DNA of 64,000 bases from Tubiluchus corallicola (Eukaryota > Priapulida > Priapulimorpha > Priapulimorphida > Tubiluchidae). Of this stretch, positions 4,074-49,318 are shown in pieces. The notes under the pieces are model-generated. The model was not told the DNA's origin. It was given only the letters and a program-made list of their open reading frames with translations, and searched no databases. The DNA lies in assembly GCA_030141605.1 (NCBI GenBank), contig JAQGDQ010000809.1, positions 1 through 64,000 on the forward strand, in the 5' to 3' direction. A program made the translations under genes and the position numbers. Positions within the stretch are counted from its first letter, which is position 1. Every line of letters begins with the position of its first letter.

Positions 4074-6515
4074 CTCCAGTATCATAAACGGCAAACACTT
4101 CAGAGTTACTGCCGCCGAAACCTCCTTCGATCGTGCCTATCTTGCACGCCGCCCTGGCGGCTTTGGTGTCAAACAATGCTCCTAGTCCACCATCGCAGTA
4201 ACAATCGCCCGTATTGTACGTGAAGCGGTAAAATGCCAAGTGCGCAAGTGTTTCCTTAAATTGAGCGAAACCGTTATTCTTTTCGATGATACGCTCAAGA
4301 CAAAGTTTGAAACAGCGGTACGGCGTCTTAGCTGCATAAGAATAGTTCCAACTAGAGTACCCAGATGGAATGTGCCAGCATCCTCGGAATTCGTGTCTTT
4401 CCTTTTGCCAATCAGCAAGAACTGAAAAAAATTCATACAAAGCTATAATGTCACTCAAGCAGTAGAGTAAAAAGCCACAGTGATTTCTAAACTAACTAGA
4501 CAGACCAACATATAACTGTTACAAAAATAAATTCATCGACTTAATTATTAATCAAGAGCAAAAATACTGTGATGCTGCCGGGCACTTGAAAGGGGATAGC
4601 GAATCCCTAGCCAATTCAGGATTTCTGGAAGCCAACAGGTCCTGGTTCGGTATTTACTTGAAATTGTGTTCAGCATAAGTACAAAGTGAGGCAAGTTTCT
4701 AGTAGAACAACAAATGCTATGACTAGCTCAAGTAGAACGTAAGTCGAAGAATAGAAGCTCAAGCAGAACATAAGTCGAGGAATAGAAGCTCAAGCAGAAC
4801 ATATATCAAAGAATAAAAGTTCAAGCAGAACATAAGCCGAAGAATAAAAGCTCAAGCAGAACAAAAATCAAAGAATAAAATCTCAAGCAGAACATAAGTC
4901 GAGGAATAGAAGCTCAAGCAGAACATAAGTCGAGGAATAAAAGTTCAAGTAGAACATAAGTCGAAGAATAAAAGCAGAACACAAGTTGATGTGTTAAACA
5001 AGAACAAAACCGAATACAAATGAATCAACTTACATGAAGTTTCATAAACTTTCGTTGCCCGGTTTTTACACACGTTGCCTGTAGAGTCAAATCCTGTACA
5101 CTTCGTGTCACAAGTGTCAATTCCAAACCTCCCGTAGGAGTTACCGCAGAAGCAGCGATGTGGAGGGTTCTTGTTTCTAAATATCAAACCGTAGTATGGA
5201 AAACTTTGGTTGGAGCATTCGTTATTGCAAACATCTCTCACCTCTTCTTCAGAACGACGTACATCAATGTCGAAGCTCTGTGGAAAGTCGTCTTCATTAC
5301 GAGCGCTTGTAACATAGCAACCAAGAGAGTCGTCCTCTAAAAAGAAGCAAGTGCAGATCGATGAAACGAGGTCACACAGTTTAGAAAGGGCAGTAAAGCA
5401 ATATTTTAAGAGTAATTTTGTAACCACGTGCAAAATGAATAACAGAAATTGTGCTGTACATGTGAATGGGTCAGCATTAAAATGAAAAGCAGGCAGGCCA
5501 AGCAATACTAGAAAAATGAGAAATGTTCACAAACTGTGCTGCATACAGGCACTAGGCGAACTACCAATTTATTTTGCAACTAATTCTTTAACTCTGGAGT
5601 TTAGTATAAGTAATAATATAACATGATTAAGTGTATTACAAACGGGAATTTTATAACTTTTTTGGTACATTCATATACTTACATGATGCAGTCATACAAA
5701 AGCATATTTTTTTAAATTTAAAACGTTAAACGCAATAATTATATAACATCGTTCTTTCGGGGAACGCAAGATGTGGCCACATTTTTCAACGGCTAACTCT
5801 CAGCCACTTTGTTTGATGCTCAATGTATTGGAGGCTAAAAAGTGTCCAAATTATCAAGTAGTGTTGCCGCTTATGCCATAATTATCAGGACATCATACAC
5901 ATTCATGATACAAAAAAGAGACTATAAAATAATCGATAATTTAGTATAATTTAGTGAAACTAAAAAACAAAGCGGGAAAACTTTGATTTAAACTGATTTT
6001 AAATATGCCACCATTCAGTTTTAAACATTTACAAAGCTTTAAAAATTCTTTTTAAATTTTGAAAAAAATACCCCCACCCTATTAACATTTTTTGAGTTTA
6101 ACGGGTAAGGCAGAAAAAAAATTTCTGGTCAGTCTCTGTCTCGGTACTAATTTAGAACTTTAATATAATTTGTTGTGAATAAGTTACAACGTACAAAATT
6201 TACCTGTACTGCAGTTGCGTCCCGTATAGCCAGCATCGCAGACGCAGATATAGTTATTTACTCTATCTTCGCAAGTACCATTATTACAAGGGTTAGGTAA
6301 ACAATGATCAATACCTACAACAAAATAAAAAGTAGCAGTCACTGTTTGCCAAACTAAAATGAAATTTGCTATTACAGTCGGTCTCTGTCTACCACTAGTG
6401 AGTGTGTAACTGATATAGTATGTCTATAAAATAACTCACCTTGTGCGTGGATATGCACTATGTCCAGTAACTTGACAGTGAGTAGTACATATGCTATGTT
6501 TTTCAACCCTTGCAT
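4074..6515 (-). CDS. Secreted EGF + double WSC-domain protein (3' end not found)
   Basis: Four minus-strand exons join in consistent phase 1: 6440-6515, 6204-6314, 5034-5336 and 4074-4421. Exon 1 encodes a 25-residue signal peptide (starts [18 protein letters not shown]). Exon 2 is one EGF module with six cysteines spaced C-x4-C-x4-C-x8-C-x-C-x8-C. Exon 3 is a WSC domain with eight cysteines and the landmarks LGCYV, CNNEC and RCFCGNSYG. Exon 4 is a second, degenerate WSC domain ([32 protein letters not shown]). WSC domains are known as putative carbohydrate-binding modules of secreted or membrane proteins, so the product is probably an extracellular glycan or matrix binder. Exon 4 ends at a good donor (GGAG|GTAATT). 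Without splicing the frame continues 14 codons to a stop at 4030-4032, so either more exons follow or there is a read-through end. All introns being phase 1 is typical of shuffled extracellular modules. Confidence 0.8.
4715..4990. repeat. 31-bp tandem repeat in intron 3 of the EGF/WSC gene
   Basis: About eight to nine imperfect copies of a 31-bp unit containing agcagaacataagtcgagga and atagaagctca. Exact neighbours are spaced 31 bases (aagtcg at 4741 and 4772). It lies wholly inside the intron between the two WSC exons. Confidence 0.85.
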
Positions 6516-15055: not shown

Positions 15056-16078
15056 CTTTAGAGCTTGCCTCTATAGCCAACTGTTGGCTATATGTGTTTT
15101 GTGTGTCCCAGCTGATGAAAGAACTAATCGTTTTGGTGTAAAAACCCGTACCATATGGAATTAAATGTACAAAGGCCACACGTTTGAGGTTGCTGGGACA
15201 CACGTTGTGTATTTTTTGTGTGTGTCTCCACTGGAGAAAGAACTAATCGTTTTGGTGTAAAAACCCGTACCGTATGGAATTAATGTACGAAGGCTGCACG
15301 TTTGAGGTTGCTGGGACACACGTTGCGTATTTTTTGTGTGTGTCTCCACTGGAGAAAGAACTAATCGTTTTGGTGTAAAAACCCGTACCATATGGAATTA
15401 ATGTACGAAGGCCACACGTTTGAGGTTGCTGGGACAGTTGCGTATTTTGTGTCTCCACTGAGAAACTAATCGTTTTGGTGTAAAACCCGTACCGTCTGGA
15501 ATTAATGTACGAAGGCTGCACGTTTGAGGTTGCTGGGAACGTTGCGTATTTTTGTGTGTCTCCACTGGAGAAAGAACTATCGTTTTGGTGTTATATGGAA
15601 TTAATGAAGGCTGCGTTTGAGGTTGGGAACGTTGTATTTTTGTGTGTGTCTCCACTGGAGAAAGAACCGTTTGGTGTAAACCCGTACCTATGGATTAATG
15701 TACGAACTGCGTTTGAGTTGCTGGGACACGTTGCGTATTTTTTGTGTGTGTCCCACTGGAGAAAGAACTAATCGTTTTGGTGTAAAAACCCGTACCGTCT
15801 GGAATTAATGTACGAAGGCTGCACGTTTGAGGTTGCTGGGACACACGTTGCGTATTTTTTGTGTGTGTCTCCACTGGAGAAAGAACTAATCGTTTTGGTG
15901 TAAAAACCCGTACCTATGGAATTAATGTACGAAGGCTGCACGTTTGAGGTTGCTGGGACACACGTTGCGTATTTTTTGTGTGTGTCTCCACTGGAGAAAG
16001 AACTAATCGTTTTGGTGTAAAAACCCGTACCGTATGGAATTAATGTACGAAGGCCGCACGTTTGAGGTTGTGGAGCAT
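15056..16078. repeat. 120-bp tandem array, nine units
   Basis: The unit contains aaagaactaatcgttttggt, gtaaaaacccgtaccgtatg, gaattaatgtacgaaggc, gcacgtttgaggttgctggg and gcgtattttttgtgtgtgtc. Landmark gtaaaaacccgtacc recurs near 15138, 15258, 15377, 15481, 15676, 15782, 15901 and 16019, with one unit near 15590 that has lost it. Outer units are 118-120 bp. Units between about 15430 and 15740 are 86-109 bp because of many scattered small deletions. Open frames on the minus strand are artefacts of the repeat. Confidence 0.9.
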
Positions 16079-19791: not shown

Positions 19792-20186
19792 GTATCCTTG
19801 TATTTTACGTAGCAAATGTTATAAACGTGAATTTAGGTTCACTTATCTACTATTTATAAGTAGTTATTGTATGCAATTTATGTATGTTCCAATTTCATCA
19901 TGAAATGCTTATACATGTAACAGTGCAAAATTTCTGTTAATGTAAGACATGTGTCCTCAACACCAGCAAACACAGTGCTCAGTTAGCCTATCAGTCACGA
20001 GGTACTCTTGTTTTTGCTATGGCATCTAGTACTAAAATTAAGCAACACGAAGCTTGGTCAGTAAATGGATGTGTGACGTGAAAGGAAAACTATTTCTATT
20101 TTAGCGCAATAACATTTTAAGAACAAGTCATATCATTTCATCAAGCAATTTATTTGCAATGGAGAAAAAGAATATCAAGTCAAATA

Positions 20187-21690
20187 ATCAATAGCAGGCC
20201 CTCTCTACACACACTATTTTGTATAGTGGAAAACATAATCAATAGCAGGCCCTCTCTACACACACTATTTTGTATAGTGGAAAACATAATCAATAGCAGG
20301 ACCTCTCTACACACACTATTTTGAATAGTGGAACACATAATCAATAGCAGGCCCTCTCTACACACACTATTTCGTATAGTGGAAAGCATAATCAATAGCA
20401 GGCCCTCTCTACACTCACTATTTCGTATAGTGGAACACATAATCAATAGCAGGCCCTCTCTACACACACTATTTTGTATAGTGGAAAACATAATCAATAG
20501 CAGGCCCTCTCTACACTCACTATTTTGTATAGTGGAAAACATAATCAATAGCAGGCCCTCTCTACACTCACTATTTTGTATAGTGGAAAACATTATCGAT
20601 AGCAGGCCCTCTCTACACACACTATTTTGTATAGTGGAAAACATTATCAATAGCAGGCCCTCTCTACACACACTATTTTGTATAGTGGAAACATTATCAA
20701 TAGCAGGCCCTCTCTACACACACTATTTTGTATAGTGGAAAACATAATCAATAGCAGGCCCTCTCTACACTCACTATTTTGTATAGTGGAAAACATAATC
20801 AATAGCAAGCCCTCTCTACACACACTATTTTGTATAGTGGAAAACATAATCAATAGCAGGCCCTCTCTACACACATTATTTTGTATAGTGGAAAACATAA
20901 TCAATAGCAGGCCCTTTCTACACTCACTATTTCGTATAGTGGAACACATAATCAATAGCAGGCCCTCTCTACACACACTATTTTGTATAGTGGAAAACAT
21001 AATCAATAGCAGGCCCTCTCTACACTCACTATTTTGTATAGTGGAAAACATAATCAATAGCAGGCCCTCTCTACACACACTATTTTGTATAGTGGAAAAC
21101 ATAATCAATAGCAGGCCCTCTCTACACTCACTATTTTGTATAGTGGAAAACATAATCAATAGCAGGCCCTCTCTACACACACTATTTTGTATAGTGGAAA
21201 ACATAATCAATAGCAGGCCCTCTCTACACACACTATTTCGTATAGTGGAAAGCATAATCAATAGCAGGCCCTCTCTACACTCACTATTTCGTATAGTGGA
21301 ACACATAATCAATAGCAGGCCCTCTCTACACACACTATTTCGTATAGTGGAAAGCATAATCAATAGCAGGCCCTCTCTACACACACTATTTTGTATAGTG
21401 GAAAACATAATCAATAGCAGGCCCTCTCTACACACACTATTTTGTATAGTGGAAAACATAATCAATAGCAGGCCCTCTCTACACTCACTATTTTGTATAG
21501 TGGAAAACATAATCAATAGCAGGCCCTCTCTACACACACTATTTTGTATAGTGGAAAACATAATCAATAGCAGGCCCTCTCTACACACACTATTTTGTAT
21601 AGTGGAAAACATAATCAATAGCAGGCCCTCTCTACACACACTATTTTGTATAGTGGAAAACATAATCAATAGCAGGCCCTCTCTACTACA
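20187..21690. repeat. 51-bp minisatellite, about 30 copies, integrase-derived
   Basis: The unit is 51 bases, beginning aatcaatagcaggccctctc and continuing tacacacactattttgtata then gtggaaaacat. It encodes 17 residues on the plus strand, IINSRPSLHTLFCIVEN. Variants differ by single bases (tacactcac, tttcgtat, ggaacac). One base is missing near 20690, which shifts the frame. Because 51 is a multiple of three, both strands stay open. The array runs in frame into the BEL/Pao pol C-terminus at 21690, and the repeat motif INSRP is the residue signature found at that point of BEL/Pao integrases. The array therefore seems to have expanded from pol sequence. Confidence 0.9.
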
Positions 21691-22085
21691 CACACTACTA
21701 CACACACTTTCTGATGATCCTGCAGACTTTAACCCTTTGACGCCAAATCACCTTTTGTGAAACCAGCCTACCACCTGGCAAATTTGTTTCGGCAGACATC
21801 TACAGAAAGAAGTGGCGGCAGATTCAGCATTTAACAAATGTCTTCTGGCATCGATGGCGAACTGAGTATTTGCCAATGTTACAGTACCGCTCTAAATGGA
21901 ACAAAGAGAGAAGGAACATCCAAGATGGAGATGTCGTTCTCATCATGGACAATGCTCCCAGAAATTGCTTGCTGCTAGGGCGCTTGATTGAAAGACATTT
22001 TAGCAATGATGGATTAGTTTGAAGTGTCACCCTCAAGACCATCATGGACTTCTACGAAGACCCATCCACAAGCTCTGCCTGATAG
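21690..22085 (+). mobile_element. BEL/Pao retrotransposon pol C-terminus (DUF5641 region), decayed
   Basis: Landmarks in order are LSDDPADFNPLTPNHLL, YRKKWRQIQHLTNVFWHRW, EYLPMLQYRSKWN and GDVVLIMDNAPRN, then LLGRLIERHFSNDGLV. These match the integrase C-terminal extension of BEL/Pao elements (typical phrases LTPNHLL, WRxxQxLxxxFWxRW, YLP, DGxVR). The frame is shifted between the first two landmarks (near 21760), and a TGA follows NDGLV at about 22018, so the gene is non-functional. Everything 5' of the INSRP motif (protease, RT, RNase H, most of integrase) is missing and replaced by the minisatellite. Confidence 0.8.
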
Positions 22086-22163
22086 AAAGTGTATATGATG
22101 ATTAGTTTTGTTAGTAACTGACACATTACTTAAAATGTTAATTAAATGGGATAATGTAAATGC

Positions 22164-22188
22164 TAAAAGGAAGCATTTAAGGGGGCGG
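22164..22188 (+). other. Candidate polypurine tract
   Basis: The stretch aaaaggaagc...aagggggcgg lies about 100 bases after the pol remnant and directly before a TG that could open a 3' LTR. Placement and composition are those expected of a retrotransposon polypurine tract. Confidence 0.45.
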
Positions 22189-22420
22189 TGTGCTGATTTA
22201 AACTTGTATAGCCCCCTGTTAGTGATATAAATTGGTTTCCTTTTAAACAGGTCATGTGACTAGTCTTTTACCTGTACACTTACCTGTAGATTGGAGTAAC
22301 TCAGGCATTCACGCACTGCAGTGACAGATTGTTTAGCGTCATTCATTGATTCGTTGTTATAATTTCATAATTACACTTATAGAAGATCACCATGTAAGTT
22401 GATTTATTAATTTCTCAAAT
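22189..22420 (+). mobile_element. Candidate 3' LTR of the BEL/Pao remnant
   Basis: It starts TGTGCTGATTT right after the candidate polypurine tract and contains tataaattgg, repeated acctgta phrases and an att-rich end. The right border is not determined because no matching 5' LTR or target duplication was identified. Confidence 0.35.
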
Positions 22421-22429
22421 CTTGAACCT

Positions 22430-23190
22430 TTGTTTAGTAAAAAGACTAGATTAATTAGACTAGAGATTAGATTTTATAATTTGTGTAAAACTTCGCTAAA
22501 GTTAATTAGATCAATTTGGTTTAGATTTCGCTGTAAAATTGAGCAAAATTATATAAAATTATCTTATTTGTTTTCAGATTAAACGATACAAGCTACACAA
22601 TTATGTTGTTGGAGATTTTTTTATAAGAAGGTAGCATACAGTGATTAAATTCTGCCAACACTTTTTACATTTAGTTTCAATCAATGCTAATATTTCGACA
22701 TATTTTGAGATGAACTGAAAACTGAACAACGACATACGTAAGCTCTATCTTGACCTAAACAGACATTCTGCCTCAAGAAAAAAGACTGCGGACTTTAACC
22801 TAATGAAGCGGTCATTAGCGACAATAACGTAGATTAGCTAGAACTCAGTTAAAATAAGGTTAAGTGGCAATAAAACAGGTAAAATGCTCTACGCTGTGTA
22901 GATTTAAATTACTGCACACTTTAGTGTTTACAGCTATGATATCAGTGAATAAAAACCGAAACAGAATATGCTAAGTACAATCACGAGACTAAGACTAAGA
23001 CTAAGACTACCATTGTGATTGAGATTGATAGAACGTGTTCAATCATCACGATAATCAATGATGAAATGTTAATGTTGTGTTCGTGGAATAATCCTGCAAT
23101 TATTCTCCACATTACTGTGTTTCCTTCGGGCTTTCGGAGTTTATCAAAAATAAAGTGAATCTGTGTGTTTTAGACTGCAAAGTCATATGA
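22430..23190. other. Intergenic, presumed upstream region of the sulfotransferase gene
   Basis: AT-rich sequence. The only structure seen is a short (ACTAAG)n run at about 22987-23011. Promoter elements of the plus-strand sulfotransferase would be expected here, but none stands out. Confidence 0.4.
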
Positions 23191-23196
23191 ATAGCG

Positions 23197-26100
23197 ATGC
23201 TTAGGTATTCGCATAGAAAAACCTTTTTTGTTTTCATAATCTGCGCTGCGTTTTGCATCTTGAGTATTATTACACGTGCGTTGTTCTTCGATGATGGCAG
23301 AAGTGAAAATGTCCACGTATCAACTCATGAAGGCTGCAGAGAATCGGGACATCTTGGAAACAAAAGCATCGTGACGCAATCTGAACTATATTCTATATCA
23401 AGGCAGCTAATTCCAGCTACTATGAACAGAGCACTAAGATGCTCTAATGTAAGTGATACAAATATAAAAAAAAAAAAAAAAACACCAAAAAACAAAACAC
23501 AAAAAACACAAAAACAACAAAAAAAAACACACCAACAAACCAAACAACATATTAGCACTCTTTGTCAACAATGCAGTTTCTAATATTTATTTTAATATCT
23601 TCTTTATCAATAAGCATGCATATTTCCTAATTTTTACGCACAAAAATGTGCACTTTTCATTTGACCTTGTTGTTTTCTTTGAAATTTAACTAACTAAATC
23701 TAACTTTTTGACATTACATCACTATATTTAAAGAGAACATTTATGCCGCAACGTTTGTACATAGTTGTGGATAGGAATCACAGGACAGTTTAATAATAAA
23801 CCTATAACACATGTGAACACTAATAAACCTATAACACATGTGAACACTAATAAACCTATACCACACGTGAACACTAATAAACCTATAACACACGTGAACA
23901 CTAATAAACCTATAACACACGTGAACACTAATAAACCTATAACACACGTGAACACTAATAAACCTATAACACACGTGAACACTAATAAACCTATAACACA
24001 CGTGAACACTAATAAACCTATACCACACGTGAACACTAATAAACCTATAACACACGTGAACACTAATAAACCTATAACACACGTGAACACTAATAAACCT
24101 ATAACACACGTGAACACTAATAAACCTATAACACATGTGAACACTAATAAACCTATAACACACGTGAACACTAATAAACCTATAACACACGTGAACACTA
24201 ATAAACCTATAACACACGTGAACACTAATAAACCTATAACACACGTGAACACTAATAAACCTATAACACACGTGAACACTAATAAACCTATAACACACGT
24301 GAACACTAATAAACCTATAACACACGTGAACACTAATAAACCTATAACACACGTGAACACTAATAAACCTATAACACACGTGAACACTAATAAACCTATA
24401 ACACACGTGAACACTAATAAACCTATAACACACGTGAACACTAATAAACCTATAACACACGTGAACACTAATAAACCTATAACACACGTGAACACTAATA
24501 AACCTATAACACACGTGAACACTAATAAACCTATAACACACGTGAACACTAATAAACCTATAACACACGTGAACACTAATAAACCTATAACACACGTGAA
24601 CACTAATAAACCTATAACACACGTGAACACTAATAAACCTATAACACACGTGAACACTAATAAACCTATAACACACGTGAACACTAATAAACCTATAACA
24701 CACGTGAACACTAATAAACCTATAACACACGTGAACACTAATAAACCTATAACACACGTGAACACTAATAAACCTATAACACACGTGAACACTAATAAAC
24801 CTATAACACACGTGAACACTAATAAACCTATAACACACGTGAACACTAATAAACCTATAACACACGTGAACACTAATAAACCTATAACACACGTGAACAC
24901 TAATAAACCTATAACACACGTGAACACTAATAAACCTATAACACACGTGAACACTAATAAACCTATAACACACGTGAACACTAATAAACCTATAACACAC
25001 GTGAACACTAATAAACCTATAACACACGTGAACACTAATAAACCTATAACACACGTGAACACTAATAAACCTATAACACACGTGAACACTAATAAACCTA
25101 TAACACACGTGAACACTAATAAACATATAACACACGTGAACACTAATAAACCTATAACACAGGTGAACATTAAAAATTACTCATGATAGCAGTGTCTAAA
25201 ACTGTCTTATCTTCGTTACTTAGCGTTTGTATTTTGTTTGGACAAATAATTTGTTTTAACTTTTTCAATTTTAATAATTGGTTTAAATCAGCTTATTTTT
25301 CTACAGGCAGGAATTCGCTACTTAGACAACTACAAAAATCCGTGTTTTTACGTTTCAAGTGAAGGTAAGATAAACAGACAAACAGAAATAGTGGAACTCT
25401 AAAACGTCTGGGAGTTGGAGTGGGAGTGGGAGCGGGAGTGGGAGTGGGCCTAGATACTGAGCAACATGTTTCTGTAAAGATGCAAAGACTGCAAAAACAT
25501 CACGTCGTGTTTTCACAACTGGCTGTTAAACTTATCAGTTCATGTTTGTTCACTCAGTTGGATTTAATAATGAATTAAAGATCTCAAATGAATGGCTCAG
25601 ATGTAACAAATTTGGCTGAATGTTGAAAACTAAAACTTCAGTAGCAGTCAGCGTGGCAGAAACATTTCACTTTGAACTTTAAACGTGCGCGAGTGTAATT
25701 GAGATCGTAGAATCATCATTATCAATTTCTTTCTTAGACTTTACTGCAGACGAACACCTCTCTTGGTACAATAATATTCAGTGGGTTAAACTCATTTCCC
25801 AGAAGAGCCTTATCTTAGAAAAGTTTTTTGGTCATAGACATTTTCGTCGGAAAATATTCACAGAAAAGTTTTTTGTCAGAAAAATCTGCTTCCGAGAAAA
25901 AAATCTTCACAGAACAGATTTTTCCTAGAATTGCCATTTCGCAGAAATTTTTTGCCAAGTCCGTCATTTCATAAAATAAAAAAATAAAATTTGCAGAAAA
26001 TGTAATAAATCGTTTTAAAGTTGAGTGAGATATTACGCAAAGAAAAGTTTGAGGAAAATATTGCCGTTTATTTCCTTTAATGCGTACTATTTGATGTGGA

Positions 26101-29100
26101 TCACATGTTCAGAAAATTTCAAACTGTTTAGTGGAAAGTAGATTTGTAACATCAGAACGATTAGGAGGAAGCCATGTAGATCTTTTTCACGTATGGGTAA
26201 ACTTGCACTAAATAATTGGCTTCAGTATAAATTAGCCGTAAACAGTCACAGAATCGTCTTGTTATTGCTGTTAATTTTATTGATGTAGCTGCTAACATTG
26301 ATTGCCAAGCTTTATCAACTTCATCCCACTTCTGATACCAGTTATATGACGACAGCCAAGTAGGATTGGATTAAAATTCGTGTTGTTACACCATGTCGTA
26401 GAGTTTGTCCCAAAACCGTGCAGTGATGCCACAGAATTGAAGAAGAAATTAAAAATAAACCTGCCAGCACTTTTGTCCTGCATCTTTCACACTGGCTTAT
26501 GGAACAGGTGCTGAGATCGTAACCACCCCTGCCCGTGCTGCTGCTGTGGAAGCTCTGCATATTAGACTACTTGTAGGTGATAGTAGGTACAGGCTTCGTA
26601 ATGGACAAAACCAGGACAGACCAGGGGTGCGGGTGAAAACATCAGTATGTAATTTATATATAAATGCGATTATAATGTTTCAAAATTGTGATCTGGGTTG
26701 AATAAAAAATAAAAATTAGTTGCACCTTAGTAGTAAATCCAACCAGCATAACCGAATTCGAAAACGACATAGTACTGCTCATTTTTCTTTTCAGAAAACA
26801 TGAAATTTTTGAGATGTCTGCCATATGTTTACCTAATCGGTGCTCAAAAATCAGGAACAACTTCGATTTACGAGATATTAGCAAAACATCCGGATTTCAT
26901 AACAAGTGGTTTAGGGAAAGAAGTTCACTGGTGGGAGAATTTCAGACTTACAAAACGTATTAATGTATTGTAATTATTTTGATTCTGAGAAAAGATATAA
27001 ATAGTTAATTTTGTTACATTGTGCAAAGTGTGATTTTTCCCTTGTTAATGTGATCCTCGTTTGCATAGTAACTCTGTAAAGATGTTCACTTCGCCGTGGT
27101 GTGGGTCACGTTCACGTAATGAGTGTTTAGCCAGTTTTTATATTGCGAACTGAAAATAAAGTTACTCTGTATTTTAAAATTTCATGATAAAACTGATGTC
27201 ATGGCAAAGATAAATGATGTTCTAACAGAAAAGAACTGATCCTAGCGCATCATATGCAAGCAATGTCCACGCTTATTGTTCGTCTGTGTATTTTACATGC
27301 GAGTAAAACGTGCGTGTATTCCGGACTAACTCTCGACAAGCAATAGCTGGCAAAATAATGTTTCTGCACCAAGAAATGGAAATGCATATTACGTTCGAGC
27401 AATAGCATTTGCAGTTTATTTAAATGTTGATGATGTTTTCTTATAGAACACGAGCTTATGGCGAAAAAGAAGTCAGGATTTCTACCTAAGCTTAAGTTTT
27501 CAAGAAACAATCTTTAATTATTTTGCAGGTAAAAGTGTTTCTCTCTATAGTAGGCTTATAGATTAACAGTACTTAGACAAGTCGTGCAATTTGTAATCAT
27601 AGCCACATTATGAGAACTGGCAAGACTTCGCGTGTAGTGTGTGATTTTTTTATACGGCTTGGCAATCTGTAGATCCATATTTAGCATTACTCATTACACT
27701 GGCGTTTGTGGCATGACCAGTAGGTAGCTAGTTGTCAAGGATAGTCCTCTAAGATGAATTCTGTAACACTAGAGGTTTTAGCTATGTTCACGTGTATACA
27801 CCTGTACCAGCGATGTAGCTGGAGGCAGCATCACAGAAGAAGTCATCAATAAACAATAAATGCCCTGCCATCATTCAAAAATTTCCTAGTGTCCGTGTTG
27901 CCTAATTTAGGTCGCTAAGTTCACTTTGTCAGAAAATTGCGCTAATGTTAATTTACTTTAGTTTGGCTTAGTTGACTACCTTCTGCAATGTTTGTTACTG
28001 ACTGGTCTATGGTCTGCGGCCATAGTGGTAGTTCTAAATGGTGCGTCGTGTTTTAGTTCAGAATTCATATTAGAATAGTTATTTCTATCTGCATCAGCTG
28101 AACATCGGTTCGAACTGCAAACCAAATAAGTTCAGTTTTATCAATTTACTAATATTATTAACTAAAACTACTTTCCAGACCATACCTCATTTTGATTTAT
28201 GGTGTAAAATATATACATGATTACTGTACACAGTATCTAAATCCTTCCGATCATTAAATGTGATCTATTCCGTACTTTAGTTTAACTAACAGCCAGCAGT
28301 ACTGAACTGACAATGACGTCACTGCTATATACAGTTTTCCAGCAGAACGTTTTATAAGCGATTTGCACTTTGGAAACTATACGAATTTAGGCTTGAGAAA
28401 TAAAAATTCTGTAGTGTGAATTATTCTTAATAGGGTAATCGTTTTCCTTTCAACATTTTGGATGGTTGATAAATTTCGAGCTGTTGAGTGCTGCTTGCCC
28501 TTAACGAGAATTAGTTTCAGATTAACTTTGATTATTTTTGACCTGAATTGTTGGTGATCTTTGGCAAGAAAAGCCTGTTATGGCACAAAAAACAGGTGCT
28601 GTACCTCTCAGTTCAGATGTGTTAGTTTGCGACGAACTACACACGTTCGACAGCTCATGAAATTTAAATTTTTATCTTAAAACTTGCCTAGTTTTAGTGC
28701 AACACTCTGAATATCTTACAGTAACACTGTACTTGAGTTTTCGCTTTCACAAACACGAGCAACAAGCTCGCCTGGAATATTTTTGCTGATGAAAATTATG
28801 TTAGTTTGTGATGTCATCAATAGTTGGGCTCGCACGCCGTTAATTAAGTTTTTAATCAATTATTTTATTATCAGAAACACTTTTGCAGTATTAATTGTGT
28901 TAAAATGTATACTTTTTATCGGATTTGAAAATGGGGTACTATATGAAAAATCATCATCCGTCTTACTTGAAACTTTACTCTCTTTTTATTTGAACAGATT
29001 CAGGTCATGGGAATACAAGTTTTGAGCAATATTTGAATGTTTTTGAACACGCGAGCAAAGAAATAGAAAAACAGAAGAATGTGGAAGATTCATTTCACAC

Positions 29101-32100
29101 CAAATTCACAGGTATGCCAGAAAAATAAGTTGCACATCTTTTTATCTTATTAATTGTACAGAGTGAAATCTCGTCAGAGAATCGTTGTATTTGATGGATG
29201 TGTCTAACCTGAAGCAGGCAAGCGTCGCTTTATGACTTAATGCTACACCAAATATTACAGGAAGTCCATCACAACGAAATTCACAAAGCAATGCATTCAT
29301 TGATTCACTGATTACACGGCATCAGTTTCTTCAGAGACTTTTGGGAACTTCCTCTAGAATAAGAATAGGTGTATCTACCATGTTCCGGTACCATGTTCCG
29401 CGTTATAAGTTGTATCGCTTGGATGAAAGATTACAGTTTATTTTTGATTAATGTAAAAATGAGAGGTACATATAGGTTATGATCGTAAATCAGTGACATC
29501 ATAGCGAACAGGCAACAGTCAAAACGCTGCATAGATTTTGCTCTTGTCGAATGATTTGATAAATAATCCAATTCGTATTCCTAAAGTTTTCTCAAAGCCA
29601 GTGAAATAACCAGAGCTTTCTGGGAATATTTTTGGGTATTCTTACCGATGATGCAACTAACCACTTGTTTGTAACTGTTTTTAAAATGACAAACCTGATG
29701 TAAATAATGTAACTCAGCCACCCAGAAGAAACATTTTACTAGCCAGTTTGCTAAACAGTACAGACTGTAAATAGTTTATTAGCCTGAAGGTAATGTGCGT
29801 CAATTGCGTGAAAATTATTTAAATTTCTTATTAAATTGATTTTGGTGGCTGGAAAACTTAATCAAAATTAGCTGAAAATGCTAATAAACATTTGTTTTAA
29901 TAAATATTACACTGTAAAACATGCTAAACATTTAAAAATGCAAAAACTTGCACACCCCTTTTATTTGTTCCTTGCTTGACTCAAATTAGAAACTGCATTG
30001 CTAATATACTTTAGTATCATTTACAGATTATAAAGTGTTTAGATCTTTTTTGAGTCATTAACAGTACAGGTACCCCTATGTTAATTTAATTGTATTTCAG
30101 CACTATGTGAAGGCCCGTGGACTTTCCCTACCAGTGGACAACCCTGATTAGATAGGTGTAAATGAGGCATTATAGTGACCAGGCCCACTAAACAGGTGGT
30201 CAGCCGGGGCGGCGCCCGGGCTCCATGAGTTGAGGTGGGGCTCACAAACCAAAGGAGGAAAAAAAACGACGGTGTACCTTGACCAATGCAAACAAGATAA
30301 AATGTGTGCTTGTTAAACCAAAACCGTCCATAAGTCGGCAGTTGAAAACCACGTTTTCCTGCTTCAAAGTAGAATGTACCAAAAATTCTGTCAAATATCA
30401 ATTTTTTGTTTTTTATAAAAACAAACACTAAATGTATTGGCCTTATATATTCTATTATCAAATCGTCTTTAAAATGTTAGAGAAATACTGAAAATCTAAG
30501 TTTGTATCACCTTACCGACTTCTCTGCCTAAAAACTGGACTGCAATTGTGGAGTATCATTATTTGGAGAACTGGAGGAGGAGTCCAAGTTTCCTTTTGCC
30601 CTGGAGCGCAGCAATTCTTTTGGCGACCCTAATAGTGACGCAAGGGCAATAATTATCCCATTATGTAGTACTAACGTTCGACTTCGTAGTAAGTGGTATT
30701 AGTCATGTAAGATTCTTTTTTGACGTTTATTATCTAAGGTAAATGAACTTAATGTTTTGGCTTTTTCTTAAAGTGGCCGCACAGAACATGGAAGCAACAG
30801 ATTTTGCATTTAGATACAGAATGATGCCTCAAAATTGCATAATGATCACGAGAACTCTTATTTTGCTGATTTTAAATTGCAGGAGATTTTACACCCAACT
30901 ATATTTCCGATGAAAGAGCTCTTGGCGTGAATCAATACATAGCTGATGACATACACTGGTTAACCCCATCTGCAAGGCTTATTGTCATTTTGCGAAATCC
31001 AACTGATAGGTATGAACCTATATATGTATAATTTTTATTCGTACTCGTGATACAATCACATCAAATAAACAAAGAGATCAACAAACAAAGTAACATTAAT
31101 TAACAAGATTAGTAAGCAACGCGAATATATACAATTAAGTGAGAGTAAAATATGTTAGTATGGCGTACAACTCATTCCAGTCAAAAAATCAAAACAGTTA
31201 CCTTCTAGAGCCCATATAACTTCCTTAATGAAATTTACAGTCTGTATTTGTTCTTTGCTACCATTACTTCTTACATCTAATGAACAGTAAAAAACTTTAG
31301 AAAAAAAAATTTAATTTGTGTAAAAAGATTTGAACTTATTACAAATAGATAACAAATTATAACTTATCATAGCAGACTCATGAAATCGGGAATTATGTGC
31401 AAAGAAATTGGCAATATGATTTTCGCTATATGTAAGCAACTGTGGTAAAATTTAACAAATCGTTTCTGTAACTGTTAAGTGGGGGAACAATATCACGTAT
31501 AAAAGGAATATAGAACAATATCACATGTGTATATATATATATATATATATGCGTGTGTATCATGGGTATGGTCACCTTGAAGAAGGTGACTTTATAGTTA
31601 CCTACAAGTTGGATGGATCTGTGCACAATAATTACTGTGTTTCAGAAAAAAAGTAGTCATTGAATTCAGTGGCAAAGTCGGGTATGCGGGTTTGACGATC
31701 TAATTCTAATACAAACCCCCACTTTCAGAACCTAATAGAAATGCTACAGCCGTGGAAAATGGTGATTATTAAAGTAGTTTCACGTCGTTTATCGAGGATG
31801 CGTTTATCGTCTAGAAACTCAAGTACTTAGTTTTAACACAATTTTGTTATGGGATTGGATCAGACAGTTTGAACAACATGATTTAGGAACCTCACCACAA
31901 CAAACTATATACGCTATTTGCAAAAACATTTACAGTAAGAATTGACTACATCTACGCTAGCTGAAAAGTATTACAATATTACGTTAGATATTAGTACCAA
32001 ATGATAGTTAAAAATATTAATGTAGGAATATTTAAGACTGGCGTATCTCATATCAGATAGAAACTACTGGAAGTGTTTAGTACGTAATATAAAGTCATGT

Positions 32101-35100
32101 ATACATTGGAATATTTTACAGTTAGCAACATAGTTAAATTCATCTTTTCCGGATAATAACAACTTCAACAGATCATTAGTTCCTAAGGCAGCTATATTAA
32201 GGTTTTCAGGCAGCAGTTTCATTTAGTTTATTAAACAGAATAACCCTAGTTTGTTGACACAATGGGCAGTGCAACAAAAAGTGTTCAACAGACTCAAATA
32301 CACAGTTACCTTTCGGCAATATTGGATGACCGTTATTATCTTTACAGCCTTTAGAGAAAAGGTCATAGTTCAGCTGAGAAAATCCGATTCTTATGCGCGT
32401 ATGATGCACAGAAATTGGCGGTTTACCAAATGAAAAATGCTTCTTACGCCGTGAAAAACCCAAATGAGTTTTGAGCTCTCGTTTGAAATGTGAAATGGAT
32501 GTAATTTCACGAATGTTCTGTGGCAAGTTGTTCCACATGTTAATTGTCGATATGAAAAATGATTTTTCGCAGCTGACAGAACGGCAGTTAAAATTTCTGT
32601 ATTTAGTACCACTGCGTACATAATAGGGGGTAACTTCGTTTACCTTTGGTGGCAGAGTTGCACTTAAATAGTGTGGCGTTAAGAATTTGATTATTTTGAA
32701 AAAAGACGACATGGGCGATGATAATGAAAGCGTGTCCCTACTTTAGTGAAGCCGCTGTCAGACAAGATGCTTGCAGGGGAAGATCAAAACATAGCGCCAG
32801 AACAAATTCTAGCAGCAGATTGCTAGGTATTTTCTAATAAACGTATACTGTTTTCACTGCATCCTGACCGTACTAGGTTGCCATACTCAATAGCATGAAA
32901 ATTAGTCGTAATGAATCATCGCTCGCGCGTAACTCTGGGCATATTAACTGACATACGTCGAAAGTTGTTTAGCTTAAATTACTTTGTCTACAATTTTTGA
33001 GACGTGATAGTTCCAGTTCAGATCATATGTAAGATGGATACCTAAGTGTTTTTGAACATTTACTGTTTTCAGTAGAGTATTAGATAAATATAGAGTGGGA
33101 TATTGAGGAACTTTGGATTTAAGGGAGAAAAGCATGACTTCGGTTTTATTTGTTTAGATCATGTATGGGGAAACCACGGAACTGTCAGCAACAAACGCTT
33201 ACTATACAGTGTTAAACAGAAACTCCAATACGTATATCTTAAAAAATGGAAAGAAGGAATTAAAAAAACACACAGCACTAATGACAACGATGGAAACAAA
33301 TTAAGAATCTACTACAAAGTTAAAGAATGCTACGAATTAGAAAATTACTTGCAAATTAATACTGTGACCTACAATGCTAGAATTGCTTTCACGAAATTCC
33401 TACTGAGTTCCCACTATCAGTTCCTACTGACTAGCAATAAAAACCGGTAGACATCATAAACTTAACAAAATACCAGCCAATAAAAGATACTGTATGCAAT
33501 GCGACCCAAACAAACAAGGAATAGAAGACGAAACCCATTTGCTCTTGCACTGTCGTAGATACGAACAACTAAGAAATACCCTTAATACGGAAATTAGCTC
33601 TATATATCCAAAGTTTACCTACTGATTAGATGATGACATACTAAAATTACTAGTATGCTCAAACGATTGAGAATTTCTCCAAATTGCTTGTAATTTTGTT
33701 TTAAAATGTGTCAGTTTTCGAATGTAATTGTTATAAATTGAAAATAAATGAACTATGTATATATAACTAACATCACGCATGTAAACTAAATACTACATGT
33801 GTATGCAACTATCTTAAATTTATGTTTATGTATATTCACGTTGTACCATTAGGTTAATACATCAAAGTTTGATGTTGTGTCTTTGGTTTAAATTGTTGAA
33901 TTTTTTCAGATGTTTATTAAATAATCCAAAGTGTGGAATTTAAAAGTCTATTGGGTATTTGGCAGGAATAACTTCTTGAATGTGTTGGGTGTGTCAGCAT
34001 GGCAAAGGCAAGCTTGTATCTGTTGAGATGGCAGATGAACCTCGCATTTCCTCTGTGTTGTTCTAAGACAAATTATCAACTACCCTGTTTACGATTATCA
34101 GCTTGTATTCGGTTTGCATTAGAAAATTCAGCACTATAAAAGAATAACGTTTTTAACTCGTTTAGATTGTTTGACTGTTTGTAATAATCCCATTCACTTC
34201 ACATAGACTCATTTCGTGGTATGGCAGCAACTTGGCTCCGGATTCCATCACTCCACAAAAAATTCATGAAGACATTGAGAAGGGAATTGCCGCTTATCGC
34301 AATTGCACCACGATAATGAAGCCAGACAGTTTCGAGAAATACCCATGCGTCTATAATAAAAATTTTAGAATTCAGGTATTTCTGCAAAAGGTTATTTATG
34401 AAATCATTACGCGAATATGAAATTATATTATAATGGACTGAATTCGACTTGGCTCGAGACTCAGTGAGTCGAATTCCAGGATAGCACGGTGGTCTTTAAA
34501 TTCGGTATTATGTTGGTTCATTTTGTATACTTGTTTTCTACTGTATTTATTTAACTAATGAAATTCTCTTAATTACAAATGCTATCTAAATTAGTAATTA
34601 ACTATTTATGAACTAACTGCATATACCTTTTGTAACAAGTCATCTAGCACACACAAATGTCACAAAATAGAACACTAGAATAACACTATAACAAGTTTTA
34701 TTGTCCGCATTAATAACAAAAATAGGAAATAAAATACACAGAAAACACTAACTTAAGTAAGTGTTTGGAGCACCTGTGTCAGAAATCCAGGCTGTAGTGA
34801 CCTCTACGCGCTTTTACACTGGCATTCCAGGTCAGCTGGCTTCTCACACCACGTGTAGGCACAAACAAGACGTCTGGATCTACAAGGAAGAGATGAGTCG
34901 CTGCTGACGTGGAAGCAGGGCGTGCAGAGGATACCTGATCCGACAACAGGTGCCTCCGTAACAATATGAAAACCGTATTTTATAAAAACGCAGTAGCTTT
35001 GCAAAAAGTCATGCGTCAGCAATTTTTTTACTGGTTTATTTACCATATTTGTTTATTCATTTGTTAATTTATTATTATTTTTTTAGGTTATTCGGATCTT

Positions 35101-37240
35101 TATTCGTACTTCTTCGTTTGTTTTCACAAACTTTTTCATCATTAATTTGTGCATTAATTCGTTCGTTTAGATCGTTTCTTTTAAGGAACATTGTTCAAGT
35201 CAAAGCATTTTATAGGGATATGTTTTTGTGTGTTTGACCATTGTTGTTTGTTATAGGCTATTCAGTTTATTCAATACAGTGTTTCTTGACAGCTGCATTA
35301 TTTTGCCTTGCCATTATATTGCCTATCCTAGCTCTGCCTTACTTTCTACGCTCAACATGCGCTGGGCTGCCTTGCTTGCCCTTGGTTTGTGTTGTATTAC
35401 CTGACCTTGCTTTGTCTCTCCTGTCTTATCTCGCCTTCCCTTCCCAATTGCCTTGCCCTGTACTCGAGGTCTTGAATCGCTGCTACCTGTGCTACCTTCT
35501 CATCTAACTTTGCGTCACTTTTGGCTAACGTCACGTTAAAGACGCTATGAACAAGCCCTAAAATTTTGATTTTTACCTCATTCTGGTTTAATTCTTTTTT
35601 GACATACTCTCTCTTTTCTACACAGGGCCGTAGCATGTACAAAGGTTGCTATGTGGCATATCTACGGCATTATCTGCGTGTTTTTCCTAGAGATCAGATA
35701 CTGATCCTCCGCTTTGAAGACACAATAAAAGACTTTCAGTCCACGATTCAGCGAATCTACAAGTTTTTAGAACTAAAAGGTGAAAACGTTATCAGGTCAA
35801 TACAAAGTTTTGCTGCACCTATAAAATGAAAACTTCTGTTACAAATGAACAAAAATGCGCACATTTAATTCGTTTAAATATTTTCCTTTTTATAGGCATT
35901 TTTATTTTTCCTTTACACTAAAGGTTTTATGTCATATTTGTTGCACTATGCCGTGAGACTTGATCTTGATCTTGTAAAATAAGTTAGGAGATGCGGGAAC
36001 GTTAGCATGTTTTGCCCAACTAAAGTTACCATCCAAAACTATCATGTTTTCTAGAAACACCAGTTTACCATCTTGTACAAGATGAAATAAAACAGATTGT
36101 ACAAAAATATCAAGTAACAATGTAAAACATAAAAGTACAGTATTGCTGAATCAATAATGGATTTTTGAAGCCCTCGGTATTCCATATTCGTTTGTCTCAC
36201 TATCATGAGCCAGCAGTCTTGAGAGGTGTGATGGGAGCAGATGGGGTCTAGAAACTCACTCGACTTGAACACCGATGAATATATATAGAGACTGTGGTGA
36301 AGGGCAGAGTGGGAGCTAAAATGATCCTAGACCATAGCTATCAATTTGATGGGTATTCAAAAGAGAAGCTTATGAGACATCTACAGGATGTGTTGGAGGA
36401 CCTTGATTTTGGCTCTGATCTCTTTAAGTCTCCGGTTGTGCGAGACGCGCGAAGCTTGCAAACTACATAAGAAAGAATACTAACTAATAAGCCTTTTCAC
36501 AGTTTCTTTATGTGCACGCGCAGTTACTGTAAGTCAAAGGTTAAGTGTACCACAGCAACGCGCCTTAAATACATCCGTCACTTGACATGTGTGAAAACCA
36601 AAGTCTACTAAACCAATGTTCAGTAACTTCAGTTGTTTTACGTGGACTTTCCATAACATGCATTGGTCTGTGAATAGAATGATTTACTAGCAGGATATTG
36701 CTTGGGAACAAGAAAAAATGAACTTGGAAAGGTTCTAGCTAGTTGTTAAAACTGTTACTATTACAGCAGCTTGGGCTGCGAGGCGTTGTCAAGTGCACAC
36801 AAATTCGTTGTGTGATACAATTAACCTTTGAACTTTTCACGATCATCATCAATCACTGGAACTGTCAAAAGGCTTATCCAACAATACTTTAATGTAACAA
36901 TTGGTTGTGTGCTATTCGAATCCTTGCAACGGTTATATTTTATCCTGTAGTAAGCTCTTTGGTTGCAACCTGGACAACCTATCCACATTACCTGTTGTTA
37001 TGACTTACCAAAACTTTTCTGACTCAACAGGTATTCGTTGCAACGAGTGGTTCTCACCAAACACATTTTATAAAATTTCTTTTTTTAGATAACAATGTGC
37101 AGACAGTAAGGGCAAACAAGTTCAGAAGGAAGGTGAATTTGTTTAATTCTACCAGGCTGTTACTTGACGATTTCTATTCTTCATTTAACAAAGATTTAGC
37201 TGAGCTGCTGGGTGATGAAATGTGGCTTTGGAAACAGTAA
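23197..37240 (+). CDS. CHST15: Carbohydrate sulfotransferase 15-like, complete, 8 exons, 395 aa
   Basis: Exons 23197-23448, 25307-25364, 26795-26956, 28998-29111, 30883-31009, 34207-34375, 35626-35779 and 37089-37240 join in phase to 1188 bases with one terminal TAA. All introns are GT-AG. Residues about 10-31 are a single hydrophobic segment after a short basic tail, as in type II Golgi enzymes. The 5'-phosphosulfate loop is YLIGAQKSGTTSIYEIL (residues about 116-132). The 3'-phosphate motif is LIVILRNPTDR...S, with R233 and S241 at the usual spacing. EVHWW after the first loop, CVYN, ILRFED and the C-terminal DEMWLWKQ fit the CHST15 (GalNAc 4-sulfate 6-O-sulfotransferase) branch rather than HS sulfotransferases. 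Known family role: transfer of sulfate from PAPS to chondroitin/dermatan sulfate in the Golgi. Human CHST15 is 561 residues, so the stem is shorter here. The exact acceptor sugar is inferred, and lophotrochozoan paralogues may differ. N-glycosylation motifs include NKS, NVS, NTS, NCT and NST. Confidence 0.88.
23795..25172. repeat. 27-bp minisatellite with CACGTG in nearly every unit, about 51 copies
   Basis: The unit is 27 bases: cctataacacacgtgaacac followed by taataaa. Homogeneity is very high; changes are limited to a few units (cacatgtg in the first two and one later, accacacg, aacatata near the end). It lies wholly inside intron 1 of the sulfotransferase gene. All three plus frames and the complementary frames stay open because 27 is divisible by three, so long KPITHVNTN-type or VFTCVIGLL-type translations are artefacts. 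Each unit carries the palindrome CACGTG. Confidence 0.95.
25409..25450 (+). repeat. G-rich (GGGAGT)n tract
   Basis: Six GGAGTG/GGAGCG hexamers give regularly spaced GGG runs (gggagtgggagtgggagcgg and so on) shortly after the exon 2 donor of the sulfotransferase gene. Four or more G3 runs with short loops could form a quadruplex in the transcript. Confidence 0.75.
30316..30412. repeat. Dispersed repeat copy (partner at 10183-10276)
   Basis: Same phrase order and orientation as the copy near 10.2 kb (aaaccaaa, tccataagt-ggca, cttcaaagtagaatgtacca, atcaattttt). A GC-rich stretch at 30178-30250 (gccggggcggcgcccgggct) precedes it and may belong to the same insertion. Confidence 0.6.
31529..31550. 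repeat. (AT)n microsatellite
   Basis: Eleven AT dinucleotides followed by gcgtgtgtat. It lies in a sulfotransferase intron, in the likely 3' region of the minus-strand LINE. Confidence 0.9.
32206..33130 (-). mobile_element. CR1-like LINE fragment, RT palm to C-terminus
   Basis: Reading the minus strand from about 33130 downwards, the frame gives NKTEVMLFSLKSKVP, VQKHLGIHLTYDLNWNYHV and then, after stops and shifts, MWNNLPQNIREITSISHF, VHHTRIRIGFSQLNYDLF and SVEHFLLHCPLC. This is the RT palm/thumb followed by the ARIRxG...E-HFLLxCP cysteine/histidine motif typical of the C-terminus of many non-LTR elements. Its 3' untranslated part probably continues to about 31030, close to the 31009 splice donor. 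It is truncated at the 5' side at about 33140, where a plus-strand fragment begins. Confidence 0.75.
33165..33770 (+). mobile_element. LINE fragment, ORF2 C-terminus
   Basis: The plus frame has QKLQYVYLKKWKEGIKKTH, CYELENYLQINTVTYNARIA and FTKFLLSSH. After a small frame change near 33440 it continues NKIPANKRYCMQCDPNKQG and EDETHLLLHCRRYEQLR. The C-x2-C...H-x4-C arrangement and THLLLHC close a LINE ORF2. It probably ends in the AATAAA-bearing stretch at about 33740-33770. It belongs to a different subfamily from the minus fragment beside it, because both cover the same C-terminal region with different sequence. Confidence 0.7.
34440..34476. other. Perfect 10-bp inverted repeat (potential hairpin)
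   Basis: Arms GAATTCGACT and AGTCGAATTC are separated by 17 bases (tggctcgagactcagtg). It lies just after the sixth sulfotransferase exon. The core may be a relic of an insertion end or of a tRNA-like sequence. Confidence 0.6.
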
Positions 37241-37801
37241 GAAAATTCCACCTCATGAAGTCATGTGACAAGTTTAGCATTGCAAAAGGTCAAGAAATGT
37301 GTCATCTGTGAATACAACATTATCAAAATTTTTTGATGAGTTCTCATTCCGGCTAGTTAAATGTATAATAACTAAACTAATCCGCAATAACGTCTTGGCC
37401 ATTATAAAAAATAAGGATATCGGAAACAGTAAAATTAGCACTAGGCCTAAGTAAAATTAAAGTTGTATGTCAGTTGCGGCTGCAGTAAAGCCTACGTAAA
37501 GTTTACGTGATCCGAGTTTTGTTGACCAACAAGGTCAGATATTGTTGGAGAAGAGTTGGAAGATGTCAGATTCTTCGCTTACCCGGTCTGAGCTGTTAAA
37601 CTATTCTACTTTAACATTGTCAACTACAAATAGTTCAACATTTATAAATGCGATATTCAGTTGCTCACAAATGGACAACATAGAACTAATGTTTTACCTT
37701 AATTTAGACAACGGCATTCTCGTAAAAAGTTGGTAGATCAAAAATGTTTAACTGACAATTTTATTACTTGTGCAAACCCAACTGTGTTAATTTTTGAAGA
37801 A

Positions 37802-41796: not shown

Positions 41797-42470
41797 AGAA
41801 CTCGCGCTAACCGTTACATTCCTAACATTCCACTGACTTGACTCGTACCGCTAGGTGGTATGTTTACATGGTGTCAAGTTTCACAGCGCCAGCTGTGTTT
41901 ACATAACATTAAGTTTCACAGCACCAGCTGTGTTTACATAACATTAAGTTTTACAGCACCAGCTATGTTTACATAACATTACGTTTTACAGCACCAGCTA
42001 TGTTTACACAATATTAAGTTTCACAGCACCAGCTATGCTTACATGGTGTCAAGTTTCACAGCACCAGCTTTGTTTACATAACATTAAGTTTCACAGCGCC
42101 AGCTATGTTTACATAACATTAAGTTTCACAGCGCCAGCTGTGTTTACATAACATTAAGTTTCACAGCACCAGCTGTGTTTACATAACATTAAGTTTCACA
42201 GCACCAGCTATGTTTACACAATATTAAGTTTCACAGCGCCAGCTATGTTTACACAATTTTAAGTTTCACAGCGCCAGCTGTGTTTACATAACATTAAGTT
42301 TCACAGCACCAGCTGTGTTTACACAATATTAAGTTTCATAGCGCCAGCTATGTTTACATAACATTAAGTTTCACAGCACCAGCTGTGTTTACATGGTGTC
42401 AAGTTTCACAACACCATCTGTGTTTATATAATATTAAGTTATACAACACAGCTGTGTTTACATTTCTCAT
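41797..42470. repeat. 35-bp tandem array, about 17 copies, many with CAGCTG
   Basis: The unit is about 35 bases: aacattaagtttcacagcgc, cagctgtgtt, tacat. Some copies read atggtgtcaagttt and others acaatattaagttt at the start, giving two or three unit subtypes. About half carry the E-box CAGCTG; the rest have CAGCTA. It lies in a pentraxin-gene intron directly upstream of a CCAAT/TATA-bearing segment. The left flank begins tgttagaactcgcgc, which would suit the edge of an LTR. Confidence 0.85.
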
Positions 42471-49300: not shown

Positions 49301-49318
49301 ACATACTGAAGTAACACT

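Follow-up and report, generated by a model that had tools for sequence, protein, structure and literature searches.

How does a minisatellite come to read, in frame, into a retrotransposon gene? The question is raised by a 64-kb window (the whole stretch of Tubiluchus corallicola DNA analysed, 64,000 nucleotides, C1384:1-64000), in which TRF identified a 51-bp period at 20184-21693 on the plus strand with 29.6 copies, 96% matches and a score of 2787. A table of individual units contains 30 unit starts, comprising 28 complete 51-bp units, one 50-bp unit and a 3' partial unit; a 30-copy array with 96% match is not a chance feature. A preliminary description had reported about 30 tandem 51-bp units running into a BEL/Pao pol segment within 20187..22020. 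Both the array and its passage into pol are real, as evident from TRF, the unit table and the open frame, but the array ends at 21693, and position 22020 marks the end of the DUF5641 reading frame. The locus comprises the following features, where L003 is an independent BEL/Pao-like contig and the relatives are copies of the element elsewhere in the same genome, all described below.

20184..21693, plus strand: 51-bp minisatellite array of 29.6 units (TRF; unit table)
20183..20184, no strand: 5' edge of the array, a breakpoint inside a unit, with no pol found upstream (sequence; unit table; searches with polyprotein pieces and with the relatives' upstream 1.4 kb)
20643..20692, plus strand: 50-bp unit that breaks the reading frame (unit table)
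21662..21709, plus strand: final, incomplete unit followed by a 3' junction that is rearranged and contains 2.2 copies of a 12-bp motif (TRF row 21683-21708; alignment)
21710..21757, plus strand: pol segment SDDPADFNPLTPNHLL, continuing the frame of the array's 3' part (frames; unit table; tblastn)
21741..22019, plus strand: C-terminal tail of pol in another frame, with DUF5641 at residues 23-93 (PF18701, E 8.7e-20; tblastn)
22179..22188, plus strand: purine-rich stretch, putative polypurine tract (sequence; a similar G-rich stretch follows pol in L003)
22189..22640, plus strand: putative 3' LTR of the form TG...CA (ends of the matches of four relatives)

Each array unit encodes IINSRPSLHTLFCIVEN in the plus frame, with a few replacements and one stop. 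An open frame of 368 amino acids (20654-21760) reads from the array-encoded IINSRPSLHTLFCIVEN on into LSDDPADFNPLTPNHLL, to 21757; upstream, the array frame is interrupted by the stop in unit 3 and by the frame shift at the 50-bp unit. Eleven kinds of change were counted among the window units (2 silent, 8 replacement and 1 stop), compared with a silent share of ~23-25% expected without constraint, so that there is no sign of coding constraint. Eight Pfam families matched the array at E <= 1, two of which passed their whole-protein curated cut-off (the TMEM132 Ig domain with 28.8 versus 27.6 bits, and an exotoxin A targeting-domain model with 25.6 versus 25); these matches were taken as artefacts of repetition, because no single stretch passes the cut-off alone. 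Adjacent window units are no more similar than in shuffled order (lag 1, P 0.41), and no higher-order pattern was found among them, the longest repeated unit string being reached by 1248 of 2000 shuffles. A lag of 17 units gave P 0.014, uncorrected and for a lag picked after inspecting the units, among six lags. The hairpin potential of two units does not exceed that of shuffled sequence (z -0.50). The best unit match in the window outside the array, near 59.3 kb (32/51), has no pol context and was taken as chance.

Downstream of the array, the pol tail is frame-broken, since 21741-22019 reads in another frame than the array and SDDPADFNPLTPNHLL. It ends in DUF5641, which we take to be the C-terminal domain of BEL/Pao elements, and the segment joined to the array corresponds to the integrase part between core and DUF5641 by tblastn, protein alignment and comparison with same-genome copies. 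The similarity of relatives to the window stops at 22636 (three of four) or 22640 (one of four), at the end of the putative LTR. Neither gag, protease, reverse transcriptase, RNase H nor the integrase core was found in the window copy with 300-aa polyprotein pieces and the relatives' upstream parts. The pieces, taken from the polyproteins of L003 and a second independent contig, L002, gave only two isolated weak matches beyond array and tail (E 0.28 and 0.97), and no window match at E 1e-5 was obtained with the 1.4 kb that precedes the segment in four relatives. A second copy of 22170-22760, as expected of paired LTRs, was not found in the window above shuffle level (best score 32, shuffles up to 37). 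The window copy is thus a BEL/Pao remnant that, compared with an intact element, keeps only array, pol tail with its DUF5641 and putative 3' LTR; the unmatched upstream 1.4 kb of the relatives confirms that upstream pol is gone at this locus, in line with the earlier proposal that the rest of the element was lost.

The surrounding region is rich in tandem arrays, with further minisatellites found by TRF at 41876-42463 (35 bp, 16.8 copies), 4725-4975 (31 bp, 8.1 copies) and 15097-16070 (~118 bp, 4.4 and 3.8 copies). Other features of the window include a sulfotransferase match at 35551-35826 on the plus strand (E 2.1e-9), a WSC domain at 4948-5526 on the minus strand (E 3.5e-6, just below cut-off) and a rhodopsin-type GPCR frame of 523 aa at 49310-50878 on the plus strand (E 3.4e-18), the last of which suggests an animal genome. 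Searches for tRNAs and Rfam families gave no match in the window.

Proteins from other sources place the unit within pol. A collection of bacterial genomes was searched with two patterns, the first of which matched none; the second, a DUF5641 motif, retrieved L002 and L003, BEL/Pao-like retrotransposon contigs that had been filed under bacterial assemblies (Planctomycetia TMED53 and isolate Cli_8). Both carry long pol-like reading frames, and the two ends of L003 are identical over 141 nt. Above the curated cut-off, their integrase pieces match Integrase_H2C2 and DUF5641, and a weak match to rve stays below it; the predicted structure of the integrase piece is poor (pLDDT 45.9, pTM 0.26). Read as SLHTLFCIVENIINSRP, the unit aligns gap-free to ILQTYLTEAENLINSRP of L002 and TLSTVLCEAENILNNRP of L003, so that all 17 residues find a counterpart at one site in each polyprotein, with 9/17 identical each. 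These alignments score 41 and 52, respectively, compared with 17 and 18 at the next best places in the same polyproteins, and none of the other five unit frames scores above 26. Without INSRP, 4 (L002) and 6 (L003) of the other 12 residues are identical, and their alignment score is reached or exceeded by 393 and 10 of 100,000 shuffles, respectively. The 12 residues before INSRP alone single out the L003 site (31 versus 17) but not the L002 site, where another place scores 17 versus 15. In tblastn with 300-aa pieces, the tail was matched at E 4e-18 and 2e-23, and joined matches that include the last unit together with LTPNHLL reached E 3.8e-8 and 1.7e-11. No BEL/Pao relatives were found in viral contigs by protein, motif patterns or alignment, nor was the exact unit DNA; a single motif-pattern match there lies on a contig with phage-like genes and was rejected. 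Likewise, the tail protein had no match in phages and the tail DNA none in plasmids.

The state of the segment before amplification is preserved elsewhere in the genome. We searched the assembly (343.5 Mb, 2344 contigs) with a 401-bp probe from the tail, counts of places being lower bounds, and obtained matches at no fewer than 14 places, window included. Five of the other places are nearly full-length (92-94% identity), four hold the 3' part only (from base 245 or later), and four distant ones have 66-68% identity and start at base 80 or later; among the tail-probe places listed, only the five near copies reach the junction. In four of these five, on contigs C608, C2, C970 and C1974 (loci L005, L006, L007 and L009), the segment is present once, in place inside the integrase frame, and shares 93.6-97.9% identity with the unit across 47-48 bp. 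Its reading is EGLHTLFCIVENIINSRPLTTLSDD in all but C1974, which carries two replacements. Where two units meet, the unit bases not covered by these 47-48 bp are CTCT. Position 3 of the unit is T (ATTATC) in each of the four single-copy relatives, a state found in window units 9-11 only, the others having A. In C2, C970 and C1974, a 46-bp segment lies between two AGGCCT hexamers, the first of which is AGGTCT in C608. Two partial tail copies (L010 and L011) resemble each other around base 1440-1500, just upstream of the match start, in sequence other than the pol tail, which suggests that both stem from one derivative of the element that had undergone internal deletion or recombination.

The array is built head to tail from units of some tens of base pairs, whose homologue is an internal transposon segment. 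Because four of five near copies hold this segment once, in place and 94-98% identical, nearly the whole unit is pol sequence amplified inside one element copy, as the preliminary description had supposed. The comparison of same-genome element copies with the unit that it had proposed extends the match to 47-48 bp, well beyond INSRP. Two details of its account did not hold. The coincidence of the unit start with the position of the conserved integrase motif is a matter of TRF register only: since the relatives align over 47-48 bp, with CTCT at the joint, the duplicated segment starts at LHTLFC, and the window array mid-unit. An amplification in multiples of three bases is not indicated either, as a period of 51 bp would keep the frame by chance in one case of three, and both the 50-bp unit and four 49-bp units on contig C2190 break the frame.

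C2190 (loci L008 and L012) harbors the fifth near copy, which carries the same 51-bp array with ~51 complete units, four of them of 49 bp. This count refers to 51 unit starts, of which the last passes into pol, a 98-bp stretch being taken as two units. Of the near copies, four thus carry one segment and the fifth ~51 units. The contig ends inside the array, and the 5' array edge is seen in the window contig only. The last C2190 unit runs directly into pol (TCTAACGACACTTT), as in the single-copy relatives, whereas the window 3' junction is rearranged, with a repeated CTACTACACACA motif; its extra bases are missing in C2190 and in all four single-copy relatives. C2190:44462-64790 is colinear, in pieces, with window 20184-37357, over ~17 kb that extend past the LTR into host DNA. 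Elsewhere on C2190, all pieces of which were compared with C1384, matches (>= 250 bp, E 1e-20) are scattered and not colinear. Because host DNA beyond the element 3' end is shared and colinear to window position 37357, C2190 is a copy of the window locus and not a separate insertion, either through a segmental duplication spanning at least 17 kb or as a haplotype with a structural break. The simpler notion of C2190 as the other allele is not settled, as colinearity stops at 37357. A 27-bp array lies ~2.1 kb downstream of the 51-bp array (window 23794-25173, 51 copies at 99%), and its exact anchors number 18 in C2190 versus 50 in the window, so that its length differs between the loci, too.

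The majority unit is identical in the two arrays, which differ in length (29.6 units in the window versus ~51 in C2190, as two loci or haplotypes of one assembly). The first two complete C2190 units match window units 3 and 4 exactly, and the first of them has two changes that occur in no other unit listed from either array. Because rare unit types occur in the same order, the two arrays thus have an old 5' part in common, and the array predates the duplication or haplotype split, its length having changed since. We compared divergence, counted as substitutions only, in pol tail and LTR (the first 880 alignment columns). Window and C2190 differ by 5.12% (42/821 sites). The four relatives are at 5.1-5.7% from the window, at 5.4-6.1% from C2190 and at 3.5-4.2% from one another. 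Judged by the tail alone, C2190 does not fall with the window; what groups the two loci is the common flank and array. The host flank differs by 6.55% (717/10952 sites; matches >= 250 bp, with the 27-bp array excluded and a few overlapping pieces counted twice). Units deviate from the majority by 2.10% in the window (28 units, 50-bp unit excluded) and by 1.39% in C2190 (45 units, 49-bp units and 98-bp stretch excluded). As half the inter-locus divergence amounts to 2.6-3.3% per lineage, the split can be younger than most of the array, some turnover having followed. The recent expansion earlier read from the homogeneity of the units is therefore only partly right: an array common to C2190, whose host flank has diverged by 6.55%, did not expand very recently, and some turnover may have followed.

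These data bear on several other explanations. An array that arose in an active element and was spread by retrotransposition would be carried by several family copies, and a second locus with the same array, whose tail is as far from the window as other copies' tails, is what such spread would leave. Yet the host DNA of C2190 remains colinear past the element 3' end, pointing to a locus copy instead of a new insertion, and the other four near copies have one unit, which makes this course very unlikely. That the array or its length is an assembly artefact might be suspected given that C2190 ends inside the array and that tandem arrays are often mis-sized, but two contigs carry the array with different unit variants and different 3' junctions, and we regard an artefact as highly improbable.

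Still less can be said for an unrelated satellite that adjoins a pol fragment by chance: adjacency alone would allow for it, but in four relatives the pol segment aligns with 47-48 of 51 bases, at precisely the corresponding site, and the last C2190 unit is continuous with pol, leaving this idea scarcely credible. We attach equally negligible weight to a coding repeat retained for protein function. The 368-aa open frame joined in frame to the pol segment is what such a repeat would look like, but the stop in unit 3, the 50-bp unit and the four 49-bp units in C2190 contradict it, as do the changed frame of the tail and a pattern of changes without sign of coding constraint.

The best explanation of the whole locus, to which we assign a probability of roughly 0.93, is insertion of a BEL/Pao element, in-place amplification, 5' loss and a locus in two forms. 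A BEL/Pao element would have inserted at the locus, where the integrase segment LHTLFCIVENIINSRP, located between integrase core and DUF5641 and observed as a single copy in the relatives, would have been duplicated with a few filler bases into a 51-bp head-to-tail unit. The duplication would then have grown to dozens of units by slippage or unequal exchange, and the 5' part of the element would have been lost up to a point within a unit, presumably through a deletion ending there, so that array, pol tail and putative 3' LTR remained. Finally, the locus would have come to exist in two forms, C1384 and C2190, which keep the same majority unit while their array lengths diverge; the second array, the unit order shared with it and the difference in length are direct observations. 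Minisatellite birth by slippage or unequal exchange between short flanking repeats has been modelled by Haber and Louis, as cited in PMC3389668 and PMC6947457, and the AGGCCT flanks would fit this model. The first step may accordingly have been slippage at these short repeats, a suggestion we make with reserve because their spacing is 46 bp (three of four relatives) versus a 51-bp unit, and five extra CT-rich bases must be assumed. A further idea, that the integrase-derived unit has become a self-standing VNTR family that spreads by locus duplication, and that the identical majority unit despite 5-6.6% diverged surroundings reflects inter-locus exchange and not only slow turnover, seems doubtful to us.

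Similar events have been described in other genomes. Among human minisatellites and satellites, 7,276 (23%) are transposon-derived according to the parts of Ahmed and Liang 2012 (PMC3389668) consulted here, so that calling such an origin rarely documented, as in the preliminary description, was an overstatement. These cases likewise involve a short internal transposon segment amplified in place, including an AluJo-derived 52-bp unit that grew locally to 17 copies, and short flanking direct repeats were reported for 300 of the 7,276 (PMC3389668). The present case differs from the human ones described there in that its source is coding pol of BEL/Pao, and in that single-copy relatives as well as a second array locus are available for comparison. 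Satellites derived from Ogre Ty3/gypsy elements in Lathyrus and pea, as treated in passages of PMC7004042 and PMC9659126, also represent an LTR retrotransposon segment turned into a tandem array; the Lathyrus arrays lie downstream of gag-pol and recur in many copies, whereas the array described here lies inside pol and was observed at a single locus and in its duplicate. Satellites can derive from coding parts of transposons as well, listed sources being LINE-1 ORF2, gag of rye and wheat-relative elements and CACTA transposase (PMC9659126, Table 1). A BEL/Pao or integrase source is named neither in that table nor in Table 1 of PMC6947457, the passages of PMC4580426 on a BEL/Pao family contain no claim of a BEL/Pao pol-derived minisatellite, and titles and abstract starts of open-licence papers yielded no report of one.

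The process is thus a known one, unusual here for its source and for the completeness of the evidence, and with the kind of event already well known, its general interest is moderate to low. The locus nevertheless provides a clean case of minisatellite birth from coding transposon DNA, in which a single genome shows the segment as a single copy, the junction, the array itself and another array that differs in length and has an unrearranged 3' junction, and it could be used for measuring how minisatellites originate and turn over.
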